8,763 nucleotides of DNA, taken from contig CALQBB020000013.1 of NCBI GenBank assembly GCA_943328715.2, positions 1 to 8,763 of the forward strand. Direction: 5' to 3'. This document shows positions 5,231-8,149 of this stretch, in pieces. Position numbers and translations under genes: made by a program. Position 1 is the first letter of the stretch. Every line of letters starts with the position of its first letter. Source of the stretch: Polynucleobacter meluiroseus. GTDB lineage: Bacteria; Bacteroidota; Bacteroidia; Flavobacteriales_D; Crocinitomicaceae. A model generated the notes under the pieces. It saw only the letters and a list, made by a program, of their open reading frames with translations. It was not told where the DNA came from and did no database searches.

Positions 5231-5250
5231 AAAAAAAATCACTTTTTTTT
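5231..5250. repeat. A8/T8 inverted repeat before the cold-shock promoter
   Basis: Eight A (5231-5238), the four bases TCAC, then eight T (5243-5250) form a perfect inverted repeat. As RNA it is an A-U-only hairpin ending in U, so it could weakly end the DUF62-ABM message. As DNA, the paired A-tracts could bend the helix just upstream of, and partly overlapping, the -33 box of the cold-shock promoter. Confidence 0.5.
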
Positions 5251-5278
5251 GGATAACCGGTAATTAAGTATACCTTTA
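5249..5278 (+). promoter_or_regulatory. Promoter of the cold-shock gene
   Basis: TTG at 5249-5251 and TACCTTTA at 5271-5278 match the Bacteroidota -33/-7 pattern (TTG, TAnnTTTG) with a 19-bp spacer and one mismatch at the last base. Transcription would begin about 15 bases before the ATG, so there is no long cold-sensing leader like that of Escherichia coli cspA. Confidence 0.55.
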
Positions 5279-5299
5279 CCAAAATTAATTTATTACAAA

Positions 5300-5491
5300 A
5301 TGAGTAGAGGAACAGTAAAGTTCTTTAATGAATCTAAAGGATTTGGATTTATTATCGAAGACGACACGAACAAAGAGTATTTTGTTCATGTAACAGGATT
5401 AATCGACAAAGTCAAAGAAAACGACGAAGTTGAGTACGATTTACAAGAAGGTCGTAAAGGTTTGAATGCAATCAATGTAAAAAAAGCATAG
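5300..5491 (+). CDS. Cold-shock protein, CspA family
   Basis: This 63-residue single-domain protein has an OB fold that binds single-stranded RNA or DNA and acts as an RNA chaperone. The RNP1 motif is KGFGFI (13-18) and RNP2 is YFVHV (27-31). The common KWFN near residue 8 is KFFN here, and the end GRKGLNAINVKKA is typical of the short Bacteroidota form. The length is complete for the family. It has its own promoter upstream and a strong terminator downstream, so it is a single-gene unit. Whether it is induced by cold or made constitutively cannot be told from sequence. Confidence 0.95.
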   Translation: MSRGTVKFFNESKGFGFIIEDDTNKEYFVHVTGLIDKVKENDEVEYDLQEGRKGLNAINVKKA

Positions 5492-5509
5492 TAGTACATT
5501 CTCATCATT

Positions 5510-5611: not shown

Positions 5612-5622
5612 GATATGATATT

Positions 5623-6354
5623 ATGCGCGCATTGTTTTTTAAGGAAATTAATAGTTTTCTAAGTTCTGTTATTGGATATGTGTTTATCCTTATTTTTTTG
5701 ATTGCTTCCATTAGTGCACATTGGTTAGTTCCTTCTACGTTCAATCTACTTGATGCAAATGAAGCTGATTTAATTCCATTTTTTTATTTATCTCCTTGGA
5801 TATTTTTCGTTTTAATACCTGCAATTACTATGCGATCGATTGCGGAAGAACGAAGAACGGGTACCATTGAACTACTTTTTACTCGGCCTATCTCCGATTT
5901 TGAAATTATTTTTGCCAAATACCTTGCAGGACTGACACTTTTGGTGATCTCTCTCATACCAACTATTGTTTATGTGATCTCCATTTATTACCTCGGAAAA
6001 CCTGTAGGTAGCATTGATTTAGGAGCAACAGTTACTTCCTACATCGGATTAATTCTACTTGGTTCTGCCTTCGTTTCTATTGGGATTTTTGCCTCAGCAT
6101 TAACAAATAGCCAAATTGTTGCGTTTATTTCAGCAATGTTTTTGTGCTTTATTTTTTATATCGGTTTTTTTATGGTTGGGAATTTCTCTCAGTTCGGCGA
6201 ATTGGATTATTACATCAAATATATAGGTATTGACTTTCACTACGAATCGATTAAAAAAGGAGTTATCGACTCTGGTGACATCATCTATTTCCTTTCCCTC
6301 AATACGCTGTTCTTATTCGCTTCTTTAACAGTGATTAAAACATTGAAAAAATAA
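5623..6354 (+). CDS. gldF: Gliding motility ABC transporter permease GldF
   Basis: GldF is the ABC-2 type permease of the GldA-GldF-GldG transporter, which in Flavobacterium johnsoniae is needed for gliding; its substrate is unknown. The 243-residue protein has about six membrane segments (near 17-36, 52-70, 100-124, 137-160, 164-185 and 219-237). Between the second and third lies the ABC-2 coupling region, MRSIAEERRTGTIELLFTRP (70-89). Length and pattern are normal and no damage is seen. The gldG ATG follows after a single base, so the two are cotranscribed. No GldA-type ATPase is in the window; in F. johnsoniae gldA is also unlinked, so its absence is not surprising. Its partner GldG is interrupted here, which may leave GldF without a working complex. 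Confidence 0.9.
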   Translation: MRALFFKEINSFLSSVIGYVFILIFLIASISAHWLVPSTFNLLDANEADLIPFFYLSPWIFFVLIPAITMRSIAEERRTGTIELLFTRPISDFEIIFAKYLAGLTLLVISLIPTIVYVISIYYLGKPVGSIDLGATVTSYIGLILLGSAFVSIGIFASALTNSQIVAFISAMFLCFIFYIGFFMVGNFSQFGELDYYIKYIGIDFHYESIKKGVIDSGDIIYFLSLNTLFLFASLTVIKTLKK

Positions 6355-6355
6355 C

Positions 6356-6481
6356 ATGAAAAAGAATCTCACAAAAGGACTTTTCAACTGGACCGTGCTC
6401 GCACTTGTTGGTGTAGCGATTGTGCTTGTCAATATTATTGGTTCATTAATCTATTACAAGATAGACATGACCAAGGAGTAA
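6356..6481 (+). CDS. gldG: N-terminal membrane-anchor fragment of GldG (cut off by TAA)
   Basis: The ATG at 6356 opens 41 codons beginning MKKNLTKGLFNWTVLALVG. They hold a signal-anchor helix (about residues 13-34), then a short segment ending in DMTKE before TAA at 6479-6481. This is the expected GldG start: anchor first, then a conserved Asp-x-Thr-Lys motif followed by Arg-Tyr-Ser-Leu. After the TAA the frame reads CGT, TGA, TCC, TTG and stays open to 8149, so this is the true first exon-like part of one broken gene rather than a separate small gene. Its ATG is one base after the gldF stop. If made alone it would be a 41-residue membrane peptide. Confidence 0.85.
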   Translation: MKKNLTKGLFNWTVLALVGVAIVLVNIIGSLIYYKIDMTKE

Positions 6482-6494
6482 CGTTGATCCTTGG
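6471..6494. repeat. Micro-inversion hairpin in gldG: 7-bp inverted repeats around a flipped 10-bp segment
   Basis: CCAAGGA (6471-6477) and TCCTTGG (6488-6494) are perfect inverted repeats around the 10-bp segment GTAACGTTGA (6478-6487), which carries TAA and TGA in the gldG frame. The reverse complement of that segment is TCAACGTTAC. With it in place the codons read AAG GAT CAA CGT TAC TCC TTG, that is Lys-Asp-Gln-Arg-Tyr-Ser-Leu, the motif expected in GldG, and both stops vanish. Because the segment has AACGTT at its centre, the two orientations differ at only four bases (6478, 6479, 6486, 6487). One inversion explains all four. That the other orientation is ancestral is an inference from the protein family. 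Confidence 0.85.
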
Positions 6495-8149
6495 CTAATA
6501 GCACCGAAAACTTCTTGTCCAATAAAGGTAATTTCGAAAACAGAATCAGCATTCAAATCTATTTAGAAGGAAACATGCCTTCTGAATTAAAACATTTTCA
6601 AACAGCTTTAAAAGATAAACTGCAGGATTTCAAACGTGTTGCGGGGAATCGCATTGAGTACTTATTCACGGATATCAATATCGGATCTGAAGAAGAAGTG
6701 AATGCTATGCGTGCACAATTGTACGACAAAGGAAAAGGAATCATGCCGTTGGAAATCCTATACATGAAGGACGGAACGCAAAGTAAAGTCATGCTGTTTC
6801 CAGGTGCAATCATGAGTTATACCGTTAATGGAATCACCAAGGAAAACATGGTGCAATTCCTTCCGGGAACACAACCCGGACATCCAAACAGCTTGGAGGA
6901 TATGGCGGAGATTATTGAAACGTCTCTGAACAACCTTGAATACAACTTGATTGCTAGTATGCGTCGATTGACGCAAGTGAACAAGCCAAGAATTGCTTTC
7001 CTTCAAGGACACGGTGAATTGACGTACCAACAAACCATGCGTGCGAGAGCACTTTTAGCGCCTTACTTCACGCTTTCCGATGTGAAATTATCGGATTCCA
7101 TTGCGGCATTAAACGACATCGATGGTGTCATCATCGCTAATCCACGCATTCCCTACTCGGACAGCAGCATGTACATTTTGGATCAATTTGTGATGCGCGG
7201 TGGCAAGTTAATGGTGTTCATGAATACGCTGGAACACGATGAAGATACGCTTATGGCACGCGGAATGACGCATTCCATGAGGAAAAACCTGAAATTGGAC
7301 CGCCTTCTATTCGATTATGGAATCAAGGTTCACGAAAACTACATGATGGATGTTCAATGTGCTCCCAAGATTGTTCCTTTTGCTGAATCAACGTTTATTC
7401 CATGGTTTTTTCACGTGATGGCGACTCCGTCCAAACACCCAATCACCCGAAATGTGGATCCAATTTTGTTGAAATACGCAAACGAAGTCAGCTTTGTGGA
7501 TTTACCGAATATCAAGCAAACAAGCCTACTGACCTCCTCGACAAACTCCATTCCTTCTGGACTTCAACCATTCGTTAATCTTGGCTTGCCATTGAATTAC
7601 GGCAAATCTCCAAAATTAGTCGAAAATCCAGAGGATGAAATCAATAAAATCTGTCTTGGCGGAATGGTCGAAGGGTATTTTAGCTCCCATTACAACAACC
7701 GCCTCCCACCTGAATTCGTCAAAAACCTTCCGAAGAAATATGCATTTCAAGCAAAAAGTCAGAAAGAAGGAAAAGTATTGCTCATAGGAAATGGAACCTT
7801 CTTTGCAAATACGTACGATTCCATGCCGAATCCAAAAGGATTGAACTACTTATACCGTCCAAATGGGTTTAATGAGTTGAAAATGGATTACGACTTATAC
7901 CAACGTCGCATCTCACTTTATTATGGAAATCAAGAGTTTTTCCAAAACATCGTCGATTACATGATGGGAGATAACTCCGTACTTGATATCCGTAGTCGTC
8001 AGATTGACATTAAGGAAATTGACAAGGAAAAGGTGGCGAAGTTCGCTGGATTCTATAAAACAATCAACATGCTCTTGCCGCTTGGAATCATCATTCTATT
8101 GAGCATGCTTATGAACTACATTCGAACGCGTCGTTACGCAAGAAAATAA
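6491..8149 (+). CDS. gldG: GldG main body (gliding motility ABC transporter, extracytoplasmic part), separated from its anchor by two stops
   Basis: GldG is the extracytoplasmic partner of GldF in the gliding ABC transporter. From TTG 6491 the frame is open for 552 codons, in the same frame as the ATG at 6356, so the full gene would be about 597 residues. The body starts ANSTENFLSNKGNFENRISI, followed by IYLEGNMPSELKHF, a central PRIAFLQGHGEL, the segment LDRLLFDYGIKV, and one C-terminal membrane helix (about 525-544 of this frame) with the tail RTRRYARK. Internal sequence is intact. The TTG is probably only the first legal codon after the stops: it lies inside the conserved Tyr-Ser-Leu motif. 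AAGGAG 12 bp upstream might allow some restart. Without the anchor the body would not be exported, so the gene is probably non-functional in this orientation. The next gene starts 6 bp after the stop. Confidence 0.88.
   Translation: MANSTENFLSNKGNFENRISIQIYLEGNMPSELKHFQTALKDKLQDFKRVAGNRIEYLFTDINIGSEEEVNAMRAQLYDKGKGIMPLEILYMKDGTQSKVMLFPGAIMSYTVNGITKENMVQFLPGTQPGHPNSLEDMAEIIETSLNNLEYNLIASMRRLTQVNKPRIAFLQGHGELTYQQTMRARALLAPYFTLSDVKLSDSIAALNDIDGVIIANPRIPYSDSSMYILDQFVMRGGKLMVFMNTLEHDEDTLMARGMTHSMRKNLKLDRLLFDYGIKVHENYMMDVQCAPKIVPFAESTFIPWFFHVMATPSKHPITRNVDPILLKYANEVSFVDLPNIKQTSLLTSSTNSIPSGLQPFVNLGLPLNYGKSPKLVENPEDEINKICLGGMVEGYFSSHYNNRLPPEFVKNLPKKYAFQAKSQKEGKVLLIGNGTFFANTYDSMPNPKGLNYLYRPNGFNELKMDYDLYQRRISLYYGNQEFFQNIVDYMMGDNSVLDIRSRQIDIKEIDKEKVAKFAGFYKTINMLLPLGIIILLSMLMNYIRTRRYARK

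Follow-up and report, generated by a model that had tools for sequence, protein, structure and literature searches.

The window, i.e., the whole 8,763-nucleotide stretch of DNA analysed here, is contig C13 (CALQBB020000013.1) of the Crocinitomicaceae genome G000, an assembly of 1.34 Mb in 260 contigs that is 66.3% complete. It carries gldG, a gliding gene whose reading frame is interrupted by two stop codons, both situated within 10 bp enclosed by short inverted repeats. The locus raises the question of how two stops came to stand so close together in an otherwise open frame, and whether they could act as a switch for gliding. The 10-bp segment is the exact reverse complement of that in genome G107, and the two stops probably arose together, from one template-switch microinversion across the 7-bp inverted repeats.

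The interrupted gldG frame

Translation of the frame 6356-8149 reads M-T-K-E-stop-R-stop-S-L-A around the site, with two internal stops in place of the uninterrupted frame of a full-length GldG. The spacer, 6478-6487, lies between two arms (6471-6477 and 6488-6494) that form a perfect inverted repeat of 7 bp. This frame, the TAA and TGA within the spacer, and the arms had been given in the initial annotation, whose coordinates proved correct when the sequence was read again. An inverted-repeat tool scores the site as a single 12+12 quasi-palindrome of 83% complementarity. The 7-bp hairpin folds as single-stranded DNA on either strand, at -5.9 and -5.5 kcal/mol, and 4 of 200 and 3 of 200 shuffled sequences, respectively, fold equally well.

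The part of the gene downstream of the stops scores 324.9 bits against the GldG family TIGR03521, under the cut-off of 389.85, a value passed by only 58 of 240 family genomes. Pfam matches to ABC_transp_aux and DUF7088 are located in the same part, and the gene order is that expected for GldG, with gldF, itself over the TIGR03518 cut-off at 294.6 bits, immediately upstream. A GldG protein started at 6491 would be devoid of the N-terminal membrane segment. The features of the region are collected in Table 1.

Table 1. Coordinates of the interrupted gldG gene, its hairpin, and the adjacent gldF gene in the window
Feature	Position	Strand	Basis
gldG frame with two in-frame stops (codons 42 and 44)	6356..8149	+	sequence; TIGR03521 and Pfam matches downstream
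Left arm, 7-bp inverted repeat	6471..6477	+	sequence, inverted-repeat scan, DNA fold
Inverted 10-bp spacer with TAA 6479-6481 and TGA 6485-6487	6478..6487	+	sequence, comparison with L036/G107 and L040/G101
Right arm, 7-bp inverted repeat	6488..6494	+	sequence, inverted-repeat scan, DNA fold
Open rest of gldG, 552 amino acids from TTG	6491..8149	+	open reading frame; membrane segment read from the sequence
gldF, intact, directly 5' of gldG, with mosaic block	5623..6354	+	TIGR03518

The spacer in related genomes

A search with a full-length relative gave a gldG match in 82 of 86 genomes of the genus; 80 of these span the site, the matches in G085 and G103 stopping short of it. Stops inside the match are found in G000 alone among the 82. 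Close relatives read M-T-K-D-Q-R-Y-S-L at the site without interruption, in agreement with the GldG-family motif that the initial annotation had claimed for this position, and variants of the motif are present in more distant ones. A search for the arm pattern was matched by four of the 86 genomes (G000, G035, G101, and G107), in all of which the arms are identical, and the change is therefore confined to the spacer. An order-level relative, G042, has one TGA within its gldG match (G042:C2:84395-85927).

The exact inverted 24-mer of the site is present in locus L036, which is the G107 contig (100% identity over 4192 bases). G107 has the same arms, and its spacer is the exact reverse complement of 6478-6487 in the window. 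An alignment of gldG from close relatives had been asked for as a check, and it bears out the proposal that a single inversion would clear both stops, exactly in the comparison with G107 and with one further substitution in that with the nearest relative. The latter is G101 (the same sequence as locus L040), which is nearest by DNA among the loci compared (91.9%) and groups as sister in the tree of gldG. From the likely ancestor, the window would be reached by one inversion and one substitution, versus four substitutions without inversion.

Comparison with chance

Pairwise comparisons of 12 gldG loci gave 32 reverse-complement rows, six of them at this site, versus 36 rows in a plain-reverse control. 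Arms of at least 3 bp on both sides accompany 5 of the 32, every one at this site, and it is the paired arms that distinguish it from chance inversion-like matches. The 96-kb alignment of G000 with G101 yielded three reverse-complement, one plain-reverse, and no complement rows, with arms of at least 3 bp on both sides only at the gldG site. With hairpins defined by a perfect arm of at least 7 bases and a spacer of 4-30, the same 96 kb contain 161 informative perfect inverted repeats, 160 of them direct and a single one, the gldG site, inverted. When mismatch positions of this alignment were shuffled within codon phase, 400 replicates produced no inversion-like event with arms of at least 4 bp and, with arms of at least 3, 0.0075 events per replicate.

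In a further comparison of hairpins, 217 of 218 are direct between G000 and G101, and 100 of 101 between G000 and G015, the exception being the gldG site in both cases. Between G101 and G015 the count is 192 of 193, with the exception at L178:3203 (contig C5 of G101), where the spacer is closer to the inverted form in G015, with three differences; it is a weak candidate for a second microinversion. A stricter first scan of 42 kb, in which exact spacer ends were required, returned zero events and missed even the gldG site because of its one spacer mismatch to L040; the spacer-end rule was relaxed in the later scans.

Mechanism and published precedents

In the proposed mechanism, the growing strand would, during replication or repair, copy one arm and pair with the matching arm of the other strand. 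The spacer would then be copied backwards until, at the second arm, the growing strand went back to its original template; the arms would stay as they were and the spacer would be flipped. Polymerase template switching would be the physical cause, judging from the sequence. Template switching of the arm-correcting kind would be expected to alter one side of the spacer, while here both sides are changed. The initial annotation preferred a template switch to a site-specific recombinase, and the former is indeed the better fit, the spacer being 10 bp long. A recombinase was considered and rejected: neither a recombinase nor an invertase was recognised among the ten scanned proteins of the window, one of which has no match at all (the search was confined to the window), and an invertase is an unlikely cause of the flip. 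The other nine are a periplasmic binding protein, PanB, SAICAR synthetase, PhoH, a SAM hydroxide adenosyltransferase, an ABM protein, a cold-shock protein, GldF, and the remainder of GldG.

The flipped allele is represented by one lineage in one orientation, read from the assembled contig alone. This appears to have been a single, recent event, and in principle the hairpin could flip again in the other direction. With codons 41-44 left aside, 74 synonymous and 5 nonsynonymous changes separate gldG from L040, and 169 and 11, respectively, separate it from L033. Owing to this strong constraint on the rest of the gene, four clustered base changes hitting three codons are a poor alternative to the inversion, and since no relaxation is visible, the break would be young, or missing from most cells, or not real.

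Spacer inversion is an already published class of change, with examples from genes of yeast, genomes of apes, and rRNA of bacteria (the papers are cited here from extracts). In coding genes of Saccharomyces cerevisiae, spacers of inverted repeats are inverted via intermolecular template switching, and these inversions are described as reversible (PMC8604942). As in gldG, they lie inside a protein-coding gene and alter several bases in one event, with a reverse-complement spacer and, in nine of ten yeast genes, unaltered arms; the window differs in its 7-bp arms, 10-bp spacer, two stop codons, and bacterial host. Hairpins of rRNA, bacterial ones included, undergo loop-only inversions with the stem retained, similarly to gldG, but the genes concerned encode RNA, the loops are mostly 4 nt and sometimes 7 to 8 nt long, and the extracts hold no protein-gene knockout (PMC8794818). 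Human-chimpanzee microinversions have flanking repeats of 3-75 nt and resemble the gldG event in being short segments with short inverted repeats at or near their edges, while differing in size (17-33 nt) and in the genomes concerned (PMC8755829). Hairpin-associated inversions of chloroplasts, described in PMC3123225, share such repeats at or near the segment edges and likewise come from other genomes. In searches of an open-licence library, no title or abstract opening was found that reports a bacterial protein gene stopped by a flip of this kind. Recombinase-driven invertons and intragenic inversions were reportedly the subject of Chanin et al. in 2024. Like the gldG event, they involve an inversion within a gene that alters its coding potential, but they are said to have longer repeats and segments, an invertase, and mixed populations, none of which was seen at the window.

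Evidence against the inversion and alternative explanations

Several points weigh against a template-switch inversion. The spacer of G101, the nearest relative, is one base, at the wobble position of the Tyr codon, off the exact flip, and this other Tyr codon is the likelier ancestral state according to the tree, by parsimony assessed by eye. A four-base inversion-like match alone is common by chance. When the real mismatch positions were kept and the bases redrawn, long-armed events with at most one misfit arose at 0.195 per replicate, presumably all at the gldG site, and the base identities alone are therefore modest evidence. In an assembly so fragmented and incomplete, a minority or artefactual sequence is conceivable, as is a chimeric contig, since there is a mosaic block some 200 bp away from gldG. 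From the published side, the ape study doubts template switching at very short or imperfect repeats and favours break-induced replication (PMC8755829), and microinversion hotspots of birds show, in the extracts of PMC3123225, no link to stem-loops.

A flip absent from living cells, made during library preparation (by hairpin-primed copying or as a chimera) or by low-coverage assembly, is an unlikely source of the two stops, although one to be reckoned with. It would agree with the state of the assembly, with the fact that the 81 remaining gldG matches in the genus are free of internal stops, and with the lack of any sign of relaxed selection in gldG. It is at odds with the presence of only one flipped hairpin among the 161 comparable ones and with the integrity of other genes: in sampled stretches of G000, a stop or frame change affects 2 of 68 genes comparable with G101, namely gldG and a frame in L110, the latter through a single C-to-T change in what is possibly not a real gene, and with the roles of the two genomes swapped the count is 0 of 72. 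A fold-back self match was found at 2 of 81 contig ends, both being short local palindromes. There is no sign of a systematic assembly error; an isolated artefact is possible.

The initial annotation also pictured the hairpin, should it flip back at useful rates, as a tiny on/off switch for gliding. That it is a reversible and useful switch, flipping often enough to give mixed populations, is very unlikely. Perfect 7-bp arms are present in 12 of the 53 distinct site haplotypes (91 loci), the window's own included, and inversion of the spacer would give a stop in all 11 others. With the window excluded, perfect arms are found in 11 of 34 T-K-D-x-R-Y-S-L haplotypes, versus a mean of 6.0 after shuffling of synonymous codons, and 11 such haplotypes were reached in 40 of 5000 trials. 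These figures would suit a switch, as would the reversibility ascribed to the yeast inversions. On the other hand, recurrent flips among close relatives were not found, the off allele being the single one among the 82 genomes; perfect arms are absent from 41 of the 53 haplotypes; the codon-shuffle statistic ignores relatedness; and none of the ten window proteins is a recombinase. The third-base pairing between the arms, for which a Lys-Ser codon pair is decisive, is unexceptional among nearby codon pairs, ranking 363 of 10742 by excess pairing in 52 genes and 57 of 9783 in the 11 genes of the near clade; by covariation score, its rank is 729 in the 52 distinct genes and 164 in the near clade. 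The arms are largely the product of the codons of a conserved motif, and the third-base pairing is at most a hint of their homogenisation by template switching. With stops in G000 only and arms owed largely to chance codons, the idea of a gliding switch is left unsupported. A hairpin under selection was rejected as well, the codon-shuffle excess and the third-base pairing rank being too weak. Just as hard to accept is the more general proposal that the T-K-D-Q-R-Y-S-L motif is a built-in contingency hairpin. Its codons would supply the 7-bp arms, the spacer between them would give stop codons when inverted, and single template switches would turn gldG off and later on again, so that gliding would be phase-variable with no recombinase involved.

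Among short N-terminal fragments in the protein database, none was recognised as another copy interrupted at the site; the searches gave three and five short proteins, five different ones altogether, while any longer proteins from interrupted genes would be hidden in 90% clusters such as P0001, with 160 members. P0121 is the window's own fragment, while P0122, P0124, and P0125 have the uninterrupted motif. P0123 (47 amino acids, from a 1291-base contig) is the gldG N-terminus of a close relative with an apparent frame shift, deduced from the residues, a few codons 5' of the hairpin; it may represent another broken gldG or stem from an error in sequencing. The cluster of P0121, the 41-amino-acid interrupted N-terminus, holds two member sequences, with one contig, and the second of these may represent a further interrupted copy.

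It is highly improbable that the stops arose in a decaying gldG through independent point mutations that only mimic an inversion. The mimicry itself is not rare, as inversion-like four-base patterns are about as frequent as their plain-reverse controls and random bases at the given mismatch positions reproduce the flip fairly often. Yet this would take four base changes in three codons, all inside a 10-bp segment whose limits are set exactly by perfect arms, in a gene that is conserved elsewhere, and the position-shuffled controls gave no such event with arms of at least 4 bp. Recoding of stop codons was rejected, given that TAA also terminates the gldG frame and that the 79 other site-spanning genomes are free of stops in the match. 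That the interrupted gene still works, with translation beginning anew at an in-frame TTG (6491) or at an ATG further on and yielding a product without the N-terminal membrane segment, is barely credible: the frame is open from 6491, and AAGGAG at 6473-6478, completed by the flipped spacer 12 bases before the TTG, is a possible restart site, but the N-terminal segment is kept in 11 full-length relatives (the twelfth, P0012, comes from a 2.5-kb contig and is shorter, at 468 amino acids), Bacteroidota make little use of ribosome-binding motifs, and TTG, here within a hairpin arm, is a rare start codon.

The neighbouring gldF block and cold-shock gene

Matches to the block 5614-6273 in gldF were obtained in 79 other genomes of the genus, none of them above 75% identity, whereas identity to L040/G101 is 92-99% in the gldG bins and 99% in the cold-shock bin. 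The edges of the block are sharp, with 126 identical bases past 6273, and some 200 bp separate its end from the gldG inversion. The block may be an allele acquired by recombination from a donor outside the sampled genomes, or the mark of a chimeric contig. Upstream, the bin 5250-5500 is 98-100% identical where covered in five relatives whose overall identity is 80-92%. An RNA or tRNA gene was considered for this conserved stretch and rejected, since the window has neither an Rfam match at the gathering score nor an ARAGORN match; it corresponds to a cold-shock protein gene (CSD, 63 amino acids) at 5300-5491.

Predicted consequences for gliding

The flipped allele would give no full-length GldG, and both the GldA-GldF-GldG transporter and gliding would be lost; loss of gliding is predicted for cells that carry it. 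In G000, gldA scores 417.7 bits, over the cut-off, a GldM match over the cut-off is present together with its neighbours, and a GldJ-like protein falls under the cut-off; the rest of the machinery is therefore at least partly present. The gld mutants of Flavobacterium johnsoniae are reportedly resistant to phages, which the initial annotation put forward as what would make switching worthwhile. In the extracts of two gldG papers, the word "phage" is absent from PMC8269157 and occurs in PMC5682007 only as a protein name in tables. Gliding of F. johnsoniae requires GldG, and disruption of gldG reduces the amount of GldJ protein (PMC8269157), while in F. psychrophilum secretion is also affected by the loss of gldG (PMC5682007).

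The site offers a clean candidate case of loss of function brought about by a hairpin in a single mutational step in a bacterial protein-coding gene, with a repeat supplied by ordinary codons of a conserved motif. If it is real, four-base clusters of this sort should not be counted as independent substitutions, and many conserved motifs could conceal one-step off mutations. Were reversal of the flip frequent enough to be useful, the hairpin would amount to a switch working without a recombinase.
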